64,000 nt of DNA from Gammaproteobacteria bacterium Gsub (GTDB lineage: Bacteria > Pseudomonadota > Gammaproteobacteria > PS1 > Pseudothioglobaceae): positions 1 through 64,000 of the forward strand of contig JYIN01000010.1 of assembly GCA_002007405.1 (NCBI GenBank), written 5' to 3'. Shown piece after piece: positions 3,687 through 22,367 of this stretch. How positions within the stretch are numbered: position 1 is the first letter of the stretch; each line of letters begins with the position of its first letter. The notes beneath the pieces are model-generated. The model had not been told where the DNA came from, searched no databases, and saw only the letters and a list, made by a program, of their open reading frames with translations. The position numbers and the translations under genes were made by a program.

Positions 3687-3928
3687 CGTTACAGATTGTT
3701 AGCTTAGTTTTAATACACTTTTTTATAGCATCCTCAAAATCTTACTTTATTGCACGGCAAACGCTGTTTAGGCGAGACGCAGCGAAGCCAAACTAAACCG
3801 TTTTGTTATCTGTGCTTAGTTGAGGGGGCAAAGCTCGTTGCAAAAGGATTGGTTTTATAACTATGCAAACACCTTCCTTTATAAAAAAGGTAAAATTCAA
3901 AGGGTTTAATTTTAAAATTTGCAGAAAA

Positions 3929-4564
3929 ATGATTAAGAAACTCACAATTATATTGGCTATTTTCCATCTCAACATTGCTTTTTCTATGTTTGCTATGTCT
4001 GCTGCACCTATAAAGGGGGTTATAGACCCACCGAATACCGCTGCACTAAACTTGCTTACCGATGCCTTGTCTGCACTCAAAGAATTAAGAAAGCACAACA
4101 AAGCTTCTGCTGAAAATGTTGAGACCTTAATAAAATCTAAAATGCTACCCAGCATTGCCATAGATGTTTCAACTCAATTGGCACTTAAAAAACACTGGCA
4201 GACTTTAAATACCAAGCAAAAACTGATTTTTCAACAATACATTACCCAATCTTTAGTTCAAGATTATGCCAGCGTCCTATCCTCTTACGATAAATTAGAC
4301 AGTATTGATATTGAAGTTGACTCAATGGTAAAACGCAAGGGCAACAAGGCTATTGTTAAGTTGTTCGTTAGTCTTGATAACGATTCAAAACCTTTTATTA
4401 TTTCTTTAAAGATGATTAGGTCTGGGCATTGGCGTACTTATGATGTTGTTTTTTCTGGGGTTAGTTTAATAAAAAATTATCAAGCAGAATTTGATTCGCA
4501 TATCAAACGCAAGGGCATTGAGAGCCTAATCGCTAAAATGACTAAAAAATTAGATAATGTATAA
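3929..4564 (+). CDS. mlaC: Phospholipid-transport periplasmic protein MlaC
   Basis: Periplasmic lipid shuttle of the Mla pathway (Ttg2D/MlaC family). MlaC carries phospholipids between the outer-membrane MlaA complex and the inner-membrane MlaFEDB transporter. The chosen ATG (3929) starts a clear signal peptide (MIKKLTIILAIF...AMSAAP) and gives 211 residues, the E. coli length. An ATG at 3863 would add 22 basic residues before the signal. The C-terminal half has the MlaC pattern, ending in a family-type WRTYDVVFSGVSL segment. The stop overlaps the murA start by eight bases. No mlaF, E, D or B lies beside it, unlike in most relatives. Confidence 0.87.
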   Translation: MIKKLTIILAIFHLNIAFSMFAMSAAPIKGVIDPPNTAALNLLTDALSALKELRKHNKASAENVETLIKSKMLPSIAIDVSTQLALKKHWQTLNTKQKLIFQQYITQSLVQDYASVLSSYDKLDSIDIEVDSMVKRKGNKAIVKLFVSLDNDSKPFIISLKMIRSGHWRTYDVVFSGVSLIKNYQAEFDSHIKRKGIESLIAKMTKKLDNV

Positions 4565-7780: not shown

Positions 7781-8737
7781 TTATAAATCTAAGGCTTCAA
7801 TTTCTAATAACATTTTGTTAATTTGTGGTCCTAATTGTGCCTTGTAGCCGTGCCAATTTTTGTAGGCGGTGAGCTTTTTATCTGCCTTGGGTTTGATTTC
7901 ATAATCGGCTAAATCCTGCTCATAGCCTTTTTTGGTTTCAGCTTGGATAATGAGTAGATAATTTAAAAACGGTACCACTGCTTGTTGAGAACTCCCCGTA
8001 GGACCGTGTCCAGGCACATAATTCTTGAGTTTTAGATTGACTGCGTATTTTAAGACTTTGATATTGCCGTGCATATCTGCTGAATTATCAAATCTTGCTT
8101 GTCGGTGGGAAAAACTGTTATCCCCTAGAAAGAGAGTTTTACTTGCTATATGCTCAATCATAATATCGGTATCAGTATGGGCTTTGGGTACTGGATTGTG
8201 AATTTTAAAATCTTCTCCAGCTGCTTGAATAATTTGTAAATGTTGGGTAGCATGGGTTGGATAAGTGGCAATTGTGCCTTTAGACACACCTTGAGTTAAA
8301 TTTTCTATAAGACTTACCCAAGTTGCACCAGCACCGTCTTTTGCTTGGGCAATCATATTGGGGTGTGCGTAAATTTTGACTTTTGGGTATTTTTCAACAA
8401 TTGCTTGATTGCCTAGCCAATGGTCGCCATGCACATGGGTATTAAAAACAGCTGTGATTGGTTTTTTGCTTATTTTCTTAATCTCTTCAATAATTTTTTT
8501 GCCCACAAGATACGAGCTGCCAGGGTCAATAACAACAACACCTGTGCTACCGATAACAATACCAGGATTATTCATAAAACCTTGATTTTTAGCATTCGGC
8601 TCGCCTAATGGACCATGAATGACAAAGACATTATCGCTGATTTGTTTAGGATTAAACTCGCCAAGACCTGCAATCATCCAAGCATTTGAGAATGTTGATA
8701 AGGTGAGTAAGGTAAGTAAAAAAGTGGTTTTTTTCAT
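7781..8737 (-). CDS. Secreted metallo-beta-lactamase-fold hydrolase, SoxH-like
   Basis: A 318-residue protein with an N-terminal signal peptide (MKKTTFLLTLLTLSTFSNAW) and the MBL metal motif H101-x-H103-x-D105-H106 (THVHGDHWLGN). Later metal-site positions are visible as PKAHTDTD, FLGDNSF and the terminal VPGHGP. Architecture and size resemble SoxH and the quinoprotein-relay zinc hydrolases, which are periplasmic thiol- or thioester-type hydrolases often found in sulfur oxidisers. The substrate cannot be read from the sequence. It faces the fad operon across a 411-bp gap and has no operon partner. The start is set by the signal peptide. Confidence 0.82.
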   Translation of the reverse strand: MKKTTFLLTLLTLSTFSNAWMIAGLGEFNPKQISDNVFVIHGPLGEPNAKNQGFMNNPGIVIGSTGVVVIDPGSSYLVGKKIIEEIKKISKKPITAVFNTHVHGDHWLGNQAIVEKYPKVKIYAHPNMIAQAKDGAGATWVSLIENLTQGVSKGTIATYPTHATQHLQIIQAAGEDFKIHNPVPKAHTDTDIMIEHIASKTLFLGDNSFSHRQARFDNSADMHGNIKVLKYAVNLKLKNYVPGHGPTGSSQQAVVPFLNYLLIIQAETKKGYEQDLADYEIKPKADKKLTAYKNWHGYKAQLGPQINKMLLEIEALDL

Positions 8738-9148: not shown

Positions 9149-11506
9149 ATGTTAGTGTTTTATTACCTATCATTTATACTTTTAATTGGTCTTTTATTTA
9201 CTCGCTTACAAAGGCTATTTCCCATTTTTACATTGTTATTTTTAGTTTCTACGCTGTATTTTTTGGCAGTTTTATCAGTGCATAGCTGGGTTTTAATTGC
9301 TATTGGTTTGTTGTTTGTAGGGGTGTGGTTGGTGCTCAGTGTGGGTGTTGTGCGTGCTTGGCTGTTGAATATTTTTGCGAAAAAATTTATCCATCAAAGT
9401 AATATTGGCATAAGTGAAACTGAGAAAATTGCGATGCAAAGTGGGGATACACACTGGGAGGAGAATCTATTTTCTGCAAGACTAGATTGGGATAAATTAC
9501 ACAATGTGCAAACTCAGCCCCTAAGTCAAGAAGAGTGTGATTTTATTGCTGAAAAAGTCCCCGCTTTATGCCAACAGTTTTATCAACATGGTATGAGTAG
9601 GCAAACGCTTGAGGAGATTAAAAATCAAGGATTTTGGGCGTTTAATATTCCCAAAAAATACGGCGGTTTAGACTTTTGTGCACAGGCACATGCTACAATT
9701 TTAGCTCAACTCTCAGTTTGCGATGTGTCTTTGGCAGTAACTGTTATGGTGCCAAATTCCTTAGGACCTGGTGAGCTGATTTTGCACTATGGTGAGCAGA
9801 CACAAAAACAATCTCTATTGCCCAAGTTGGCTAGTGGTGAGCACATTCCTTGTTTTGCACTAACTTCTACTGATGCGGGTTCTGATGCAGGTGCTATGAG
9901 AGATACTGGCGTGGTTTGTGAGCAAATATATAAAGGCAAGAAAACCCTAGGGCTCAAACTTAATTGGGAAAAACGCTACACTACGCTAGCTCCGATTGCG
10001 ACTTTGATTGGGCTGGCATTTAAGACTTACGACCCAGATGGTTTATTGGGTGGCAATAAAACATTGGGCATTAGTTGTGCTTTGGTAGATGTGAATTTAC
10101 CGGGTGTGGATATTGGTCGTTATCATCATCCGATTGGTGGTTCTTTTGCCAACGGTCCGCATCAAGGCAGGGATGTTTTTATTCCACTGTCAGCTGTGAT
10201 TGGTGGCAGGCAAATGCTTGGGAAAGGCTGGGCAATGTTAATGGAGTCACTGTCTTTGGGGCGCGGCATTTCCTTGCCTTCCTTGTCTTTAGCAGGGTGC
10301 GAATTGGGGCTTAAAAGTAGCCTTGAATATAGTTTATTGAGGCGACAGTTCAAACAGGGTCTATATCGTTTTCAAGGAATAGCAGAAAAAATCATCCCGA
10401 TGGCAGCAGATATTATGCAAATGCAGGCAATGAGTATCTTTCATCTTAATTTGTTAGACCAAGGCATTAACCCCTCCCTTAGCTCTGCCATCTTAAAATA
10501 CCATCATACCGAGGCCCTACGCACCCATCTAAATACTGCTATGGATATTCATGCGGGCAAAGCGATAATGTTGGGTGATAAAAATTATCTTAGCAATATT
10601 TATGCAGCAATTCCCATTGCCATTACTGTTGAGGGGGCCAATATTCTAACCCGATCAATGATTATCTTTGGTCAAGGTTTAATGCGTTGTCATCCGTATT
10701 TAAAAGATGAAATTGCACAATTAGCAAATAAAAATACTGCTGGATTGAGTTTGCTACTAGGCAAACATTTGCAACATATCATTTGGGTCAAGACAAAGAG
10801 TTTTTTTTATGGGCTTAACGCCGCGCTTAGCCCCTTACCGAGGGCGACATTATCTAAAGTTACCCGCCCCTATTATCAAAAAATTAGCGCCCTAAGTGCA
10901 AGCTTTGCTTTTTTGGTTGAGATAGCGGTACTCAAATTTGGTATCGGGCTAAAGTTTCAAGAATCTATCAATGGTTTGTTTGCTGATGTGTTAATACGCT
11001 TATACGCCTTATCCACTACGCTGAAATTTTATGATGAGCAACGCTCAGATAGCCATACCAACCTTATACATTGGATTGGACAGACACAATCTCGTCAAAT
11101 TCAGTTAATTTTGCTTGAAATTAGCCAACAATTTAAACTAAGCTCGTTGTTGCGTTTGCTTATTTTGCCCCGAGGAATCAGTCAAAAGTCGCCAAAACTC
11201 AGCCTGCAAAATCAACTCATCAAGCAATTGATAGGCGACCCAGTATTAAAAAACGCCCTAACCAAGAGCGTTATTCTGCCCTATAAATCACACCCCTTAA
11301 AACAATTAGATAAGGCATTTAAATTAGCACTCCAAGCTGAGGAAATTTATCAATCTGTGGGCTTTGTTGATGATTTGATAGCTATTGGAAAATTATTAAA
11401 TAGCGATAAAATTAACCAACAGCAGCACGATTTATTAGTAGAATTGACCCAACTAAGAGCAGATATTTTATCGGTGAATGATTATGCGAGGTCTTATGAA
11501 GATTAA
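9149..11506 (+). CDS. fadE: Membrane-anchored acyl-CoA dehydrogenase FadE
   Basis: Flavoprotein for the first step of fatty-acid beta-oxidation, making trans-2-enoyl-CoA. The length (785) and domain order match FadE of E. coli (814). Two or three hydrophobic helices (residues about 1-75) come first, then the acyl-CoA dehydrogenase domains with FALTSTDAGSDAG, then the signature ITVEGANILTRSMIIFGQG containing the expected catalytic Glu, then the FadE-specific C-terminal domain. It is first in a four-gene operon; its end overlaps the next gene by 11 bases. A promoter would lie in or just after repeat copy A. Confidence 0.93.
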   Translation: MLVFYYLSFILLIGLLFTRLQRLFPIFTLLFLVSTLYFLAVLSVHSWVLIAIGLLFVGVWLVLSVGVVRAWLLNIFAKKFIHQSNIGISETEKIAMQSGDTHWEENLFSARLDWDKLHNVQTQPLSQEECDFIAEKVPALCQQFYQHGMSRQTLEEIKNQGFWAFNIPKKYGGLDFCAQAHATILAQLSVCDVSLAVTVMVPNSLGPGELILHYGEQTQKQSLLPKLASGEHIPCFALTSTDAGSDAGAMRDTGVVCEQIYKGKKTLGLKLNWEKRYTTLAPIATLIGLAFKTYDPDGLLGGNKTLGISCALVDVNLPGVDIGRYHHPIGGSFANGPHQGRDVFIPLSAVIGGRQMLGKGWAMLMESLSLGRGISLPSLSLAGCELGLKSSLEYSLLRRQFKQGLYRFQGIAEKIIPMAADIMQMQAMSIFHLNLLDQGINPSLSSAILKYHHTEALRTHLNTAMDIHAGKAIMLGDKNYLSNIYAAIPIAITVEGANILTRSMIIFGQGLMRCHPYLKDEIAQLANKNTAGLSLLLGKHLQHIIWVKTKSFFYGLNAALSPLPRATLSKVTRPYYQKISALSASFAFLVEIAVLKFGIGLKFQESINGLFADVLIRLYALSTTLKFYDEQRSDSHTNLIHWIGQTQSRQIQLILLEISQQFKLSSLLRLLILPRGISQKSPKLSLQNQLIKQLIGDPVLKNALTKSVILPYKSHPLKQLDKAFKLALQAEEIYQSVGFVDDLIAIGKLLNSDKINQQQHDLLVELTQLRADILSVNDYARSYED

Positions 11507-13880
11507 CCAAGTTGCTGTTCTGGGCAGTGGGATGATGGGCGGGCAAATTGCTGCGATGTTTGCCAATGCCAATATCCCAACCTTGTTATTTGATTATAAA
11601 AAAAAGATCTTAGCAGACAATATCAAAAAACTATCCACCCTTACCCCTCCCGCCTTTACTCAAAATCTACAGCAGCAGTGGCTAACGCCTTGTAGTTATA
11701 AACAAGATTTAGATAAACTCAGCGTTTGTGACTTGGTTATTGAGGCGATTATTGAAGACTTTGATGCCAAGCGAGATTTGTTTATCAAGGTTGTTAAAAA
11801 ATTACCCAAGCATGCTATTTTGGCAAGCAATACCTCAAGTTTAAGTATTACCAAAATGCAATTTGAGCTTGATCGACACCAAGAGCGGTTTTGTGGTATT
11901 CATTTTTTCAATCCGCCGCGTTATATGCCTTTGGTTGAACTAGTTGCTGGCAAGCAAACCGAGTCCAAAGTATTAACGGATCTGGAGGTGTTTTTAACCA
12001 CACAGTTAGGCAAAAACATCATCCATAGCAATGATGAAGTGGGCTTTATTGCCAATCGTATTGGGGTATTTTCCATTGCTGCGTGTATTCACCATGCCAA
12101 GCGTTTCTCTCTTGGTTTTGACACCATTGATGCTCTTACAGGGGTGTTACTACACCGCCCCAAAAGTGCTACTTTTAGAACTGCAGATTTGGTTGGCTTA
12201 GACATTCTTAAACATGTATTAAAGCAATTTTACCAGCAACACATAAACGACCCGTGGAGGGCGTATTTTTTGGCACCCAGTTGGTTAGATGATTTGGTCG
12301 CACAACAACATTTAGGTGTGAAAACCAAAATTGGCATTTATTACAAAGAAAAAAATAAAATTAAAGTTTATCAAACTCAGAGTAGAGAATATCAATTAGC
12401 GGATTATGGAGTCGATAAAAAAGTTAAAAAAATCCTCAAGCAAGACCTTAAAAACCAACTACCACAGTTAAAAAACTGTAACCATTCACAAGCACAATTT
12501 ATCTATGCTGTGCTCAAAGACACCGCACTTTATAGTGCTTATCATTTAGATTCAATTGCCAATTCAACCCGTGATGTTGACTGGGCACTGCATTGGGGGT
12601 TTGGCTGGGAGATAGGGATTTTTGAATATTGGCAAACACTGGGCGTTGCCAACGGAGTTGCCTTATTTGGCGAAGACAGCAAACAATACCTGCCTACTTG
12701 GCTACAGAATTGCGAAAATTTTTACACCCAGCAAGGCGCTTGGTCGCCAGAACTAGGGCAATTTATCCCTTATTCTGGTTTATCGGTCTATAACACCCAA
12801 CTGTGTCGCCCTACACTCTTAAATGAAGCGCTTAAAGATCAAGGAGAGACTGTGTTTGAAAATAACTCAGCACGCTGTTGGCATCAGGGTGATAGGGTGC
12901 TGATTTTCACCTTTAAAACGCAACTGCATACACTCAATTTAGAGGTTATCCAATCATTAGACAAGGCGATTAACGAGGCACAGGAAAATTTCCAAGCCTT
13001 AGTTATATGGCAAGCTAAGCCTCCTTTTTCAGCAGGTGCTAATCTTTATGAGGTAGTTGCTGGGGCAAAATTGGGTATGATTGAACATCAATCCCTACTT
13101 AGTAATGTAAAACAAAAGGCTTGGTCATTATTAAAACCCGAGCTACCTAGTGTTGCACATTTGTTGCCCATTAACGCACTTATTCAACAATTACAAAATA
13201 CTTTTAGCCGTCTTAAATATAGTTCTATTCCTGTGGTTTCGGCAGTGCAAGGTTTGGCACTTGGTGGTGGTTGTGAGTTATTACTACATACAGACCGTGT
13301 GGTAGCGAGTTGTGAAAGTTATATTGGGTTGGTAGAAATGGGGGTGGGATTGTTGCCTGCTGGCGGGGGCTGTTGTGTGATGGCAGAGCGTAGTAGCGAA
13401 CAAGGCGCTCGGTTTGAAGTTTTAGCACAATATTTTGAACAAATTGGCACAGCGCGTGTTTCTAACAGTGCTGAACAGGCACGGAAAATGGGGTATTTGC
13501 GCCAAACAGATGTCATTATCGCCCAACCTTTAGAGTTACTTTATATTGCCAAACAGCAAGCAAAATTATTGCTTAAACAACATTATCGCCCCTCTAATCC
13601 CAACGCTTTGATTAAAGTTGGCGGGCGCGAGGCTCGGGCAAACATTTTAGCGCAATTGACCAATATGCGCGCTGGAGGATATATTTCAGAATACGATTAT
13701 TTTATTGCCGAGAAAGTCGCTGATACTATTTGTGGTGGTGATGTTGATGCTGGAACCGAGGTTGGTAGAGCGTATTTGTTAGATTTAGAACGCCACCATT
13801 TTTTGGATTTATTAAAACAAGAAAAAACTCAAAAGCGGATTGAACACATGCTGACTCAACATAAGCCACTTAGGAATTGA
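11496..13880 (+). CDS. Bifunctional 3-hydroxyacyl-CoA dehydrogenase / enoyl-CoA hydratase (HAD-first, FadN-like)
   Basis: Does the second and third beta-oxidation steps. The dehydrogenase comes first (NAD motif GSGMMGGQ; catalytic His in GIHFFNPPRYMPLVELVAG; DEVGFIANRIG), followed by the dehydrogenase C-domains. The enoyl-CoA hydratase/crotonase domain lies at the C-terminus (oxyanion motif FSAGANLYEV, then GLALGGGCELLLHTDRV and EMGVGLLPAGGG). This HAD-before-ECH order is that of B. subtilis FadN (about 790 residues) and relatives, opposite to E. coli FadB/FadJ. The ATG at 11496 is preferred because GAGG precedes it by five bases; it gives 794 residues. It overlaps fadE and is followed by the thiolase after one base. 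Confidence 0.92.
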   Translation: MKINQVAVLGSGMMGGQIAAMFANANIPTLLFDYKKKILADNIKKLSTLTPPAFTQNLQQQWLTPCSYKQDLDKLSVCDLVIEAIIEDFDAKRDLFIKVVKKLPKHAILASNTSSLSITKMQFELDRHQERFCGIHFFNPPRYMPLVELVAGKQTESKVLTDLEVFLTTQLGKNIIHSNDEVGFIANRIGVFSIAACIHHAKRFSLGFDTIDALTGVLLHRPKSATFRTADLVGLDILKHVLKQFYQQHINDPWRAYFLAPSWLDDLVAQQHLGVKTKIGIYYKEKNKIKVYQTQSREYQLADYGVDKKVKKILKQDLKNQLPQLKNCNHSQAQFIYAVLKDTALYSAYHLDSIANSTRDVDWALHWGFGWEIGIFEYWQTLGVANGVALFGEDSKQYLPTWLQNCENFYTQQGAWSPELGQFIPYSGLSVYNTQLCRPTLLNEALKDQGETVFENNSARCWHQGDRVLIFTFKTQLHTLNLEVIQSLDKAINEAQENFQALVIWQAKPPFSAGANLYEVVAGAKLGMIEHQSLLSNVKQKAWSLLKPELPSVAHLLPINALIQQLQNTFSRLKYSSIPVVSAVQGLALGGGCELLLHTDRVVASCESYIGLVEMGVGLLPAGGGCCVMAERSSEQGARFEVLAQYFEQIGTARVSNSAEQARKMGYLRQTDVIIAQPLELLYIAKQQAKLLLKQHYRPSNPNALIKVGGREARANILAQLTNMRAGGYISEYDYFIAEKVADTICGGDVDAGTEVGRAYLLDLERHHFLDLLKQEKTQKRIEHMLTQHKPLRN

Positions 13881-13881
13881 T

Positions 13882-15063
13882 ATGAAAGATTGTTATATTG
13901 TTAGCGCATTACGCACCCCAGTTGGTAAAGCAGGTGGCGTGTTTAAATACACCCGCCCAGATGATTTGCTTAGCTTTATACTTAAGCAATCTTTATCTGC
14001 TAACCCCAGTTTGGATCCTAGTAGCATTGATGATGTTATTATTGGTTGCGCCATGCCTGAGGCACAACAAGGGTTGAATATTGCTAGAATTGCACTTTTG
14101 TTGGCAGATTATCCGCAATCGGTAGCAGGTGTTACGGTTAATCGTTTTTGTGCCTCAGGCTTGCAGTCAATTGCCCAAGCTGCTGATCGGATTCGCCTTG
14201 GAGAGGCGCAAGTTATGGTAGCAGGCGGGGTTGAGAGCATGAGCATGATTCCGATGTCAGGGCACACACCTAGTTTTAATCCCAAAATTTTTGCCAATGA
14301 GCATTACAAAATTGCCTATGGCATGGGTGTTACCGCTGAACAAGTAGTGCAAAAATACCGCATTGGACGACAAGAGCAAGATAACTTTGCCTTGCAAAGC
14401 CACAAACGCGCCGCTAAAGCCCAAAGTGCAAATTTATTTGCTGACGAAATTATCCCTTACACGGTGCAAAACCATATTTATAACCCTCAGACACAAAACG
14501 CTGAGACAGTATCCACCGTAGTAACAGCAGATGAAGGGGTGCGTTTAGATACCTCGTTTGAAAAACTAACCGCCTTAAAGCCTGTATTTGATAAAAACGG
14601 CAGTGTTACTGCCGGTAATGCTTCACAAATGAGTGATGCAGCTGGGGCAGTATTATTGTGTAGTGAGCGTGCATTAAAAACCTTTAACTTAGAGCCATTA
14701 GCACGGTTCGTTGGCTATAGTGTAAGCGGTGTAGCACCTGAAATTATGGGCATTGGTCCTGTGCTTGCTATACCTAAAGTATTAAAACAGTGTGGCTTGG
14801 AGCAGGAGAATTTAGCACATATTGAGTTGAATGAGGCGTTTGCTGCACAAAGTCTGGCAGTTATTCATAATTTAGGATTAGATACTGATATTGTCAATCC
14901 CCTAGGTGGTGCAATCGCCCTAGGTCATCCTTTAGGCGCTACTGGCACACTGCGTACTGCCACCTTGCTTCATCACCTGCGTCGGAGTAATAATCGCTAC
15001 GGTATGGTCAGCATGTGCATCGGGTCCGGCATGGGTGCAGCAGCAGTTTTTGAGCATTTATGA
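13882..15063 (+). CDS. fadA: Acetyl-CoA C-acyltransferase (3-ketoacyl-CoA thiolase)
   Basis: Thiolytic cleavage of 3-ketoacyl-CoA, closing the beta-oxidation cycle. At 393 residues it matches the family. The nucleophilic Cys lies in [12 protein letters not shown] near residue 92. NEAFAAQ, the His motif [10 protein letters not shown] and the C-terminal Cys motif CIGSGMGAA are all intact. It begins one base after the preceding stop and shares an ATGA overlap with the next gene. FadA and AtoB types cannot be told apart by motif alone; the operon favours a degradative role. Confidence 0.93.
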
Positions 15064-17675
15064 GTACCAATCACCCTTATAGAACGCGAATACTCTCAAT
15101 TGATGGGGGAGGTGTGCGCGGCGTTATACCTGCAGTTATACTAAAATATTTAGAAGAAAAATTACAAAATCTAAGTAATAATCCTGATGCTAGAATTGCA
15201 CACTATTTTGATTTATTTGCTGGCACCAGCACTGGGGCGCTTATTGTGGCAGGGTTGCTTGTCCCTGATAAAGATAACAAGCCACGCTACAGCGCCCAAC
15301 AAATGGTAGAGTTGTATAAAAATACTGCCCATATTATTTTTAACGCCTCACTATTACAATCTATCAAATCCGTCTCAGGTATTCTTGATGTTAAATATAA
15401 TGCCGAAGGTTTTGAGGGGGTGCTTGATGCGAACTTTGGGAATTGTGAATTAAAAGACTTACTCAAGCCTTGTTTAATTCCAGCTTATGACTTACAGCAC
15501 AGTAAAAACTATTATTTTCGCCAGTATTTAGCACACAAAAACCCTGAGCACAATTATTATATCCGCGATGTTTTGCGTGCTACCAGTGCTGCACCAACTT
15601 ATTTTTCACCTGCCCAGATTTTAGCGGTGGAAGGCAAATACGAACATTGTTTTATTGATGGGGGTATATTTGCGATTAATCCTGCCCCTTCGGCTTATGC
15701 AGAATACCGCAACCTGAACCCTTCCCACCACGCCAAAGATACAATGATGCTATCGTTGGGAACGGGCAGAAAAAGCTTGCAGGTGGATTGTGAAAAACTC
15801 CAGCACCTAGGGGCTATGGAATGGCGCGACATTGCCAGTAATATTATTGCCACAGCAACGCCCGAGGCATCGCATGAGCAATTACAGGCGGTGTATAATC
15901 GTAGTTCTTATTATTTGAGGTTAAACGCAGATTTTGATCCATTACATTCGTGCAGTTTAGACAATAGTGATAAGGCTTATTTGGCATATTTAGTGGAACT
16001 AGGTGGGCAAGTGGTGAAAAAAAACCAAAACGCACTTGATAAGTTTGCTCAGCAGTTGATTGACAACAATCCAAAATCTAGCCAATATCAACAAACTCGG
16101 CTCACTTATTATTTGGACAATGCTGCACAATATGCGCCTAAGAATGTTGCCCTCATTGGTTTTGATACACCGATTAACTATACGCAGTTACGCCACCATA
16201 GTTTGGCGCTGTGCGCTTATTTATCTAAACATACTGAGCCGGGCGTGGTGGCAATTATGCTACCTAATTTACTCTCTTTTCCCGTGAGTTTGTTTGCCGT
16301 ATGGTATAGCAATCGCACTGCAACTTTAGTTAATCCATTGGTTAGTAGTGATGAATTACTTAAACAATGTTTAGATAGTGGGGCAAAAACTATCATCGTA
16401 GCCCAGTTATTTTTAAAAACTTTGCAAAATATTATTGCTAAAACCGCTATTAAAAATGTAATTACTGTTGAGATAGGCGATCTGCAACCTAAATTAAAAC
16501 GCCACTTACTCAACGGGGTAAGTTTTATTAAACACCCTAATTTAGCGAGAAACATAGATAATGTGGATTCTGTATGTCTAGATAAGATTTTAAAAAACAA
16601 GACCCCTATCAATGCAAATATTCAACTGGATAATGATATTGCTTTATTACAATACACTGGCGGTACCAGCGGCACGCTAAAGGCTGCGGTATTAACGCAT
16701 CAAAATATAGATGCCAATATCAAGCAAGTGCAACATTGGTTAGATGATAAAATCACTAGCAGTAGCATGATTTTGACAGCATTGCCGCTCTATCATATTT
16801 TTGCTATGAGTGTCAATTTGTTGTTATTTATTCACTTAAAGGCGAGTAGTGTTTTGGTGGCAAATCCTCGACAGATAAAGCAATTAATTCACCCGTTAGA
16901 AAAATATCCCATTGAGGTTATCACTGGGGTTAATACTTTGTTTAGCGTCTTAGTGCGCTACCCGAAGTTTTCCAAACTTGACCATTCTAATCTCAAATTT
17001 GTCATCGGCGGGGGTATGGCAGTGAATGAAGGTGTTGCTAAATTATGGCAACAACAAACTGGCAAGCCCATCACCCAAGGCTACGGGCTTAGCGAATGCT
17101 CGCCAGTGGTTAGTGTTGATGCCAATGATATTAGTGATTTTACTGGCTCAGTCGGTAAAGCTTTAATTGACACACAAATCAAAATCTTAGATCCGCAATC
17201 AAAAGAATGTGCGTTTAATAAGGTTGGGGAAATTGTTATCAAAGGTCCTCAGGTAATGGAATCTTATTGGAAAAAACCAGAATTAAACCAACAAGTTTTT
17301 ACCGAAGATGGATTTTTTCGTAGTGGAGATTTAGGATATTTAGACAATAAGGGGCGACTTTTTATAGTTGACAGGCTAAAAGAGATGATGATTGTCTCAG
17401 GTTTTAATGTCTATCCTAATGAGGTTGAAAAAGTACTTAACCAACATCCCGAAGTGATTGAATCTGCATGTGTGGGTATGAATGATGAGCAGGGCAATCA
17501 GCATGTTAAGGCATTTGTAGTAAAAAAACAAAACACTGATTTGAGTGCAAAACAACTCATTGCTTATTGTCAAGAACATCTTAGCCATTACAAAATTCCA
17601 AAGGCTATTGAATGGATAGACAACTTACCAAAAACACCTGTTGGTAAAGTTTTAAAACGAAAATTAAAGACCTGA
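15060..17675 (+). CDS. Fusion of patatin-like phospholipase and long-chain acyl-CoA ligase
   Basis: One 871-residue protein with two complete enzymes. Residues 1 to about 330 are a patatin domain: oxyanion motif DGGGVRG (15-21), nucleophile elbow GTSTG (Ser57), and catalytic Asp200 in DGG. Residues from about 345 to 871 are an ANL adenylate-forming enzyme of FadD type: P-loop YTGGTSGTLK (532-541), YGLSECSPV, the hinge region SGDLGYLD and VDRLKEMMIVSGFNVYP, and the C-terminal catalytic Lys region PKTPVGKVLKRKL. The A3 loop has LKAA where PKGA is usual. Expected activities are release of fatty acid from a lipid and its ATP-dependent loading on CoA. It is last in the fad operon (ATGA overlap). 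No signal peptide, so cytoplasmic or at the inner face of the membrane. Confidence 0.9.
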   Translation: MSTNHPYRTRILSIDGGGVRGVIPAVILKYLEEKLQNLSNNPDARIAHYFDLFAGTSTGALIVAGLLVPDKDNKPRYSAQQMVELYKNTAHIIFNASLLQSIKSVSGILDVKYNAEGFEGVLDANFGNCELKDLLKPCLIPAYDLQHSKNYYFRQYLAHKNPEHNYYIRDVLRATSAAPTYFSPAQILAVEGKYEHCFIDGGIFAINPAPSAYAEYRNLNPSHHAKDTMMLSLGTGRKSLQVDCEKLQHLGAMEWRDIASNIIATATPEASHEQLQAVYNRSSYYLRLNADFDPLHSCSLDNSDKAYLAYLVELGGQVVKKNQNALDKFAQQLIDNNPKSSQYQQTRLTYYLDNAAQYAPKNVALIGFDTPINYTQLRHHSLALCAYLSKHTEPGVVAIMLPNLLSFPVSLFAVWYSNRTATLVNPLVSSDELLKQCLDSGAKTIIVAQLFLKTLQNIIAKTAIKNVITVEIGDLQPKLKRHLLNGVSFIKHPNLARNIDNVDSVCLDKILKNKTPINANIQLDNDIALLQYTGGTSGTLKAAVLTHQNIDANIKQVQHWLDDKITSSSMILTALPLYHIFAMSVNLLLFIHLKASSVLVANPRQIKQLIHPLEKYPIEVITGVNTLFSVLVRYPKFSKLDHSNLKFVIGGGMAVNEGVAKLWQQQTGKPITQGYGLSECSPVVSVDANDISDFTGSVGKALIDTQIKILDPQSKECAFNKVGEIVIKGPQVMESYWKKPELNQQVFTEDGFFRSGDLGYLDNKGRLFIVDRLKEMMIVSGFNVYPNEVEKVLNQHPEVIESACVGMNDEQGNQHVKAFVVKKQNTDLSAKQLIAYCQEHLSHYKIPKAIEWIDNLPKTPVGKVLKRKLKT

Positions 17676-20992: not shown

Positions 20993-21517
20993 ATGATTCA
21001 TAACCACTTACTCAGCGCAGCAAAGCAAGTGCCATCAGATAATCAAAATGAGCGACCTACTGATGTGATTTCATTAGTGGTTATTCATAATATTTCCTTA
21101 CCCCCGAATATTTTTAATAATGACTATATTGAGCAGTTTTTCACCAACCAACTTGATTTTGATATTCATCCTTATTTCCAAACCATCCGTAATCAGCAGG
21201 TATCGGCACATCTTTTGATTAAGCGTGATGGCAAAATACTGCAGTTTGTCCCCTTTAACAAACGCGCCTGGCATGCGGGTGAATCTAATTTTTTGGGATG
21301 TGATAACTGCAATGATTTCTCTATTGGCATTGAGCTTGAGGGGGCGGATAATATTATCTATGAAAAAATCCAATACCAAGTATTAAACAACACAATCTCT
21401 TTGTTAAAAAAACACTATCCCATCACCGCTGTTGTTGGACATAATGAGATCGCGCCCGGCAGAAAGACCGATCCGGGTGATGCATTTGATTGGAGCAAAA
21501 TAGATGAACACAAATAA
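20993..21517 (+). CDS. ampD: 1,6-anhydro-N-acetylmuramyl-L-alanine amidase AmpD
   Basis: Cytoplasmic zinc amidase of the peptidoglycan recycling pathway. It has 174 residues (E. coli 183) and no signal peptide. Zn ligands are His32 in VVIHNIS and the late pair in VVGHNEIAPGRKTDPGDAFDW. The substrate loop FNKRAWHAGES and GIELEGAD are intact. The gene end overlaps the kdsC-ogt start by 14 bases. A role in beta-lactamase regulation is known for enterobacteria but not implied here. Confidence 0.94.
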   Translation: MIHNHLLSAAKQVPSDNQNERPTDVISLVVIHNISLPPNIFNNDYIEQFFTNQLDFDIHPYFQTIRNQQVSAHLLIKRDGKILQFVPFNKRAWHAGESNFLGCDNCNDFSIGIELEGADNIIYEKIQYQVLNNTISLLKKHYPITAVVGHNEIAPGRKTDPGDAFDWSKIDEHK

Positions 21518-22367
21518 ACTGGCAAAAAATATCAAACTGGCTATTTTTGATGCTGATGGAGTTTTAACCGATGGTGGCTTGTACTTTGCCGATGATGGCA
21601 CAGAGTTTAGGCGTTTTAATTCTTTAGACGGTTTGGGCATCAAACTGCTTAAAAATAATGGCATTGAGCCAGCGGTTATCACAGCACGCACTTCTTTGGC
21701 TGTTAAAAATCGCATCAAAGAGCTCGGTATTAAATATCTTTATCAAGCACAAAATGACAAATTGGTAGTGTTTAATAATTTAATAAAAAAACTTCACCTC
21801 AAAAAACAACAATGTGCTTTTGTAGGTGATGATATCACTGATTTACCAATAATGACTCAAGTAGGTTTGCCAATTGCCGTTGCCAATGCCCATGATTTAG
21901 TGAAGGAAAATGCTTATATGACTACCAAAAAAACGGGGGGCAATGGTGCGGTTAGAGAGGTTTGTGATTTTATTCTTAAAGCCCAAGGCAAATTTGACTC
22001 TGCCATAGAGTCTTATTTAGCGAGACCTCAGTCTATTAGTCAGTCTCTTAGTATGACTAAATTTCAAAAGCACTGTTACCAAACTCTAAAAACACAGGTC
22101 CCCGCTGGTAAAGTCATCAGCTACGCTGGGTTGGCGCAACTCATGGGGTGCCCAAAAAGCATGCGTGCAGTCGGTCAAGCCATGGGCAAAAACCCGTATG
22201 CCCCCACCGTACCTTGCCACCGTGTGGTTAAATCAAATGGTGAATTAGGCGGTTTTAACGATGCCATCACGGTCAAAATCAAGCGTCTCAAAGAAGAAGG
22301 TGTAGAAGTCAAAGATGGCAAAATCATAAATTTCAAACGCCATTTATTCATAAAGCATAGTTTATAA
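21504..22367 (+). CDS. Fusion of KDO-8-phosphate phosphatase (KdsC) and alkylguanine/alkyltransferase-like protein (Ogt)
   Basis: Residues 1 to about 172 are KdsC, a HAD phosphatase of LPS KDO synthesis: nucleophile Asp16 and Asp18 in DADGVLTDG, then TARTS and GDDITDLPIM. Residues from about 184 to 287 form an MGMT/Ogt DNA-repair domain with the helix-turn-helix GKVISYAGLAQLMGCPKSMRAVGQA and the alkyl-acceptor Cys238 in PCHRVV, followed by GGF. The two join in one frame through a short linker (RPQSISQSLS). Met184 (22053) could start a separate Ogt, but no ribosome site precedes it. The preceding gene is ampD; the convergent neighbour is atpC. Confidence 0.88.
   Translation: MNTNKLAKNIKLAIFDADGVLTDGGLYFADDGTEFRRFNSLDGLGIKLLKNNGIEPAVITARTSLAVKNRIKELGIKYLYQAQNDKLVVFNNLIKKLHLKKQQCAFVGDDITDLPIMTQVGLPIAVANAHDLVKENAYMTTKKTGGNGAVREVCDFILKAQGKFDSAIESYLARPQSISQSLSMTKFQKHCYQTLKTQVPAGKVISYAGLAQLMGCPKSMRAVGQAMGKNPYAPTVPCHRVVKSNGELGGFNDAITVKIKRLKEEGVEVKDGKIINFKRHLFIKHSL

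Follow-up and report, generated by a model that had tools for sequence, protein, structure and literature searches.

A patatin joined to a FadD-like acyl-CoA ligase in a gammaproteobacterial beta-oxidation operon, with a proposed role in recycling of cellular lipids

A patatin-ligase gene closes a beta-oxidation operon

We analysed a window of 64,000 nucleotides, the whole stretch of DNA to which all coordinates below refer. A single continuous ORF at 15060-17675 (+) encodes a protein of 871 aa, in which a patatin is followed by a long-chain acyl-CoA synthetase, as assigned by Pfam and by alignment with relatives. The gene is the last of a run of four, fadE, HAD-ECH, thiolase and patatin-FadD, which overlap or are separated by near-zero gaps. 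The first, at 9149-11506 (+), encodes a fadE-type acyl-CoA dehydrogenase of 785 aa (Pfam ACDH_C and Acyl-CoA_dh_N/M/1), and its NCBIfam NF007000 score of 734.9 bits exceeds the 600-bit cut-off. It is followed at 11478-13880 (+) by HAD-ECH, an 800-aa protein with 3-hydroxyacyl-CoA dehydrogenase ahead of enoyl-CoA hydratase (Pfam 3HCDH_N, 3HCDH and ECH), whose best NCBIfam match, Staph_FadB at 551.7 bits, falls under its cut-off. The third gene, at 13882-15063 (+), encodes an acetyl-CoA C-acyltransferase (thiolase) of 393 aa, with 624.4 bits to NCBIfam NF006553 against a cut-off of 567. The thiolase stop shares 4 nt (ATGA) with the ATG start of the fused gene. The coupling to fadE, a HAD-ECH enzyme and a thiolase described in the initial annotation is thereby borne out by the Pfam and NCBIfam matches of the upstream genes.

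Two further features lie ahead of the operon. A metallo-beta-lactamase-fold protein at 7781-8737 (-) is divergent from fadE and resembles SoxH-related quinoprotein relay hydrolases, with scores under the curated cut-offs. MlaC, a phospholipid trafficking protein, is encoded at 3863-4564 (+), ahead of murA, hisG and hisD; this is probably the usual mla-murA-his neighbourhood rather than a piece of the operon.

The patatin part of the fused protein (aa 1-338, 15060-16073 (+)) was delimited by PF01734, alignment with free-standing relatives and an AlphaFold2 model. Its Pfam match spans aa 12-212 (1.7e-22; 81 bits against a gathering score of 27.7), and its motifs are complete: the oxyanion motif GGGVRG at 16-21, the nucleophile motif GTSTG at 55-59 with Ser57 (codon 15228-15230 (+)), and DGG at 200-202 with the catalytic Asp200 (codon 15657-15659 (+)). 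A junction of about aa 339-346 (16074-16097 (+)), without a linker domain, leads to the AMP-binding domain at aa 353-737 (16116-17270 (+); PF00501, 222 bits, 1.2e-65) and the C-terminal AMP-binding_C domain at aa 788-863 (17421-17648 (+); PF13193, 3.2e-17). All three Pfam domains exceed their curated cut-offs. The ANL motifs YTGGTSG, YGLSE, GDL, VDR and PKTPVGK were all found, the last carrying Lys863, the final residue of the domain. Both the union of patatin and acyl-CoA ligase in one polypeptide and the complete catalytic centres that had been claimed for it from the sequence were confirmed by the ORF, the domain search and these motifs.

The separate proteins of relatives align over the entire patatin domain, C-terminal helix included, as well as over nearly the whole FadD N-terminus; since both parts align in this way, neither enzyme is truncated. 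In the AlphaFold2 model, pLDDT was mostly over 90 in the patatin part. The FadD part was modelled poorly because few FadD rows were usable, and we therefore make no claim on domain orientation. The best NCBIfam matches of the fused protein were long-chain-fatty-acid--CoA ligases, all under cut-off, and the FadD equivalog NF006523 was not reached (503.6 bits against 884). The ligase part is hence described here as FadD-like rather than as a FadD equivalog, with a predicted long-chain substrate.

Separate genes in relatives and origin of the junction

Seven genomes of the same family, probably the SUP05/Thioglobaceae group, carry adjoining patatin and fadD genes as two ORFs (G081, G039, G038, G079, G073, G075 and G074). 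Their patatin and FadD are orthologous to the parts of the window protein, with about 54-60% identity, and differ from it in being encoded by two overlapping or near-touching ORFs instead of one. At the junction, the two genes share 4 nt (ATGA) in G081, G075, G079 and G074 and overlap further in G039 and G038; in G073 a short gap separates them. On contigs that reach far enough, the operon order is that of the window: G081, G039 and G038 have the full order fadE, HAD-ECH, thiolase, patatin, fadD, and G074 keeps this order, although its HAD-ECH is shortened and its fadD is broken. The contig of G073 runs from a partial HAD-ECH through the thiolase and patatin into the beginning of fadD, and record L089 adds the end of fadE. 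Contigs end inside the thiolase in G079 and inside patatin in G075, and coverage of the order stops there on the upstream side.

Several other arrangements were seen in the family. The FadD ORF of G074 (L041, 9719-10732) has only 337 aa, with both FadD ends matching and the middle missing. In G063 (L038, 4298-5482) the thiolase overlaps fadD by 4 nt and there is no patatin, either by loss or because it was never gained. In G045 (L032, 4839-5935) thiolase and fadD flank a patatin that is broken over three frames, as a decaying gene or through draft errors. The patatin of G048 is convergent to a fad operon, and in the stretches read from G030, G014 and G026 (g4) no fad gene of the window's type lies beside patatin.

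We tabulated the two enzymes by hand in the 61 family genomes that were at least 85% complete. Both were present in 14, patatin only in 0, FadD only in 9 and neither in 38 (Fisher p = 3.6e-8, a value that ignores kinship). The genetic coupling of patatin and fadD reaches wider than the fusion, as the genes of relatives overlap or lie a few bases apart. Gene pairs with short overlaps are enriched for complex subunits (PMC10666635), and by analogy the split proteins of the relatives may already act together.

Among the 83 family genomes, no fused patatin-FadD other than that of the window was found; the same-genus genome G002 is uninformative on the fusion, as its contig starts within FadD. The same architecture is present in G088, from another gammaproteobacterial family and the only genome of its family and order in our sample, where fadE, HAD-ECH and thiolase are followed by a 929-aa patatin-FadD fusion. 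Domain order, operon and slot are all the same as in the window. The two fusions are about 33-37% identical, and the G088 linker is longer, at roughly 28 residues, and contains an in-frame ATG (L060:9226), with a TGA that is out of frame and shifted by one base. Judged by its letters, this ATG/TGA may be a relic of an ATGA overlap, although any ATG followed by A looks alike. In the patatin tree, the window sequence is basal to the family patatins (86/72) and G088 is sister to them (86/90); in the FadD tree, the window sequence falls within the family (100/100) and G088 lies outside on a long branch. These trees are compatible with one ancestral fusion that was later split or with two separate fusions, and the fused state may be the older one.

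A third patatin-FadD fusion was not found in the 83 family, 369 class and 398 phylum genomes (some shared) or in 80 named loci. In the profile search of contigs, a single-sequence query gave no match, and a query with the patatin alignment gave the 80 loci, none of them fused. The patatins of nine other class genomes had no adjoining fad genes in the stretches read. The same was true of the phylum genomes G689, G677, G691 and G746, for which the flanks read were about 1.5 kb long. No plasmid record covered 80% of the full fused protein, and the best plasmid matches were to the FadD part only.

At the window junction, an out-of-frame TAG (16079-16081) sits where the patatins of relatives stop (LIDNNPK against LVENHAV). 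One base inserted at 16064-16078 would end patatin at this TAG, the relatives' position, and give FadD a TTG start at 16060. A real small deletion and a missed base may each fit the junction sequence. The second case would make the fusion an artefact of assembly or base calling, with two overlapping genes in the true genome and one base missing between 16064 and 16078; the lack of another fused copy in the family, where the contig of G002 begins inside FadD, agrees with it. Against this, the restored FadD would use a TTG without an evident Shine-Dalgarno sequence, whereas all seven paired relatives can start FadD at ATG, and 16061-16112 contains no ATG, GTG or TTG in any frame. The junction also has no homopolymer longer than 4, while 542 runs of at least 5 occur within 48 long ORFs (55 kb; a set biased toward intact genes), and G088 shows the same architecture in an unrelated assembly. 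We regard an artefact as quite improbable. A real fusion is favoured because the ATG is absent, the neighbouring genes read cleanly and a second lineage, G088, is fused. The fusion probably arose when two adjacent genes were joined in frame, joining being a likelier direction than splitting.

A proposed role in recycling of the cell's own lipids

Apart from the fused protein, the genome has no patatin and no fatty-acyl-CoA ligase; its one other AMP-binding protein, a 642-aa ORF on contig C6, is probably an acetyl-CoA synthetase. FadL was found neither in this genome nor in the 83 family genomes, in a search with one Pfam model whose positive controls worked. When fadD is mutated in E. coli or S. 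meliloti, free fatty acids of membrane-lipid origin build up and stationary-phase survival is lower (PMC7232532). In the same work FadD degrades endogenous fatty acids from this source; its text, searched by word, has no mention of phospholipase. Recycling of the cell's own lipids is the best explanation for the locus because of the sole patatin and ligase, the absence of FadL, the co-occurrence of the two enzymes and the mutant data, and we consider it fairly probable that the protein is a bifunctional enzyme of this kind, a lipase and ligase feeding the operon's beta-oxidation. The N-terminal patatin, through Ser57/Asp200, would release a fatty acid from phospholipid of the membrane or from some other internal acyl lipid; the FadD-like ANL enzyme at the C-terminus would activate the freed fatty acid with ATP and CoA; and the other products of the operon, FadE, HAD-ECH and the thiolase, would degrade the acyl-CoA to acetyl-CoA. 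For the fused protein we infer the enzyme activities, the phospholipid substrate and the endogenous source of the lipid alike.

Some observations count against this role. Among solved structures, a plant patatin comes closest to the patatin part, followed by CBASS phospholipases, and the substrate is therefore not readable from sequence. Nine near-complete family genomes have FadD without patatin, and the FadD pathway can therefore do without it. Patatins have broad acyl hydrolase activity, and the protein could instead use another internal substrate (triacylglycerol, wax ester or an acyl-CoA thioester) or act as a transacylase, which we hold unlikely. A search for a WS/DGAT storage-lipid synthase gave no match, and its control also matched nowhere.

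Membrane-lipid recycling had been suggested in the initial annotation beside the use of host or environmental lipids. The former draws inferential support from the lack of a detectable FadL and from the single patatin and fatty-acyl-CoA ligase; the latter is disfavoured by the FadL result. The family includes host-associated lineages, and the protein might act on external lipids, be they from host tissue, from prey or dissolved, instead of those of the cell's membrane. With no FadL in this genome or in 83 relatives, and with an N-terminus that by eye has no long hydrophobic stretch ahead of the catalytic motif, we rate an outside source as rather unlikely; FadL was sought with one Pfam model, and another importer may exist.

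The fusion itself could mean, in line with the hand-over proposed in the initial annotation, that the phospholipid-derived fatty acid passes directly to the CoA-ligase site, bypassing the cytosol, in a dedicated lipase-to-ligase enzyme of gammaproteobacteria that lack FadL. Such channelling seems doubtful to us; if true, small chemolithotroph-like genomes would thereby have a self-contained means of recycling membrane during starvation. There is close to an even chance that the fusion is incidental, a single indel having joined co-translated neighbours and left both enzymes unchanged, without channelling and with a neutral or nearly neutral effect, which is compatible with the recycling role. 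Both enzymes are retained in relatives whose genes are separate, and only a slight difference sets the junction apart from the split state. The window also holds another fusion, a 287-aa ORF at 21504-22367 (+) in which a KdsC-type KDO-8-phosphate phosphatase (aa about 6-172) precedes an O6-methylguanine-DNA methyltransferase with PCHR (aa about 186-267). We know of no metabolic link between these two enzymes, and because KdsC-Ogt joins unrelated functions, genes of this genome can evidently fuse incidentally, and fusion need not mean channelling. Speaking against a purely incidental joining, the architecture recurs at the end of this operon in the distant lineage G088, and the short overlaps of the relatives, a trait enriched for complex subunits (PMC10666635), suggest that the enzymes may already cooperate. 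Three features link the lipase with the ligase and with beta-oxidation, namely the operon, the gene overlap of relatives and the fusion, in a family in which no FadL was found, and the endogenous recycling route that we propose becomes directly testable with one protein.

Comparison with known systems

By sequence, the patatin domain of CapV, a CBASS phospholipase, is related to that of the window. CapV is a defence effector activated by cGAMP, whereas the window's patatin sits among fad genes. CapV was rejected as an identity, as no CD-NTase lies beside the gene; the scanned neighbours are fadE, HAD-ECH, thiolase, the MBL-fold protein, yidC and a TauD-family protein. Potato patatin-17 (PDB 1oxw), the best solved relative of the patatin part (6e-35, PDB), has the GGG-R-G, GTSTG and DG motifs in common with it, but is a plant tuber protein without a ligase domain.

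Enterobacterial FadD matches the ANL part over its full length with about 40% identity. That enzyme is a separate protein that acts together with the importer FadL, whereas the window's ligase is fused and scores under the cut-off of the NCBIfam FadD equivalog. No description of a fusion between patatin and acyl-CoA ligase was found in the open-licence papers searched.

A parallel in layout is Aas, which like the window protein places a lipid enzyme ahead of an ANL acyl-activating enzyme in one chain. Aas consists of a PlsC-type acyltransferase and an acyl-ACP synthetase and rebuilds phospholipid, whereas the window's lipase would, as predicted from its sequence, break it. Identity with Aas was rejected, since the N-terminal domain is a patatin and not of PlsC type, and NF006386 matches aa 348-870, the ligase part, only. 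Both enzymes are of known kinds; what is new is their arrangement as domains of one protein.
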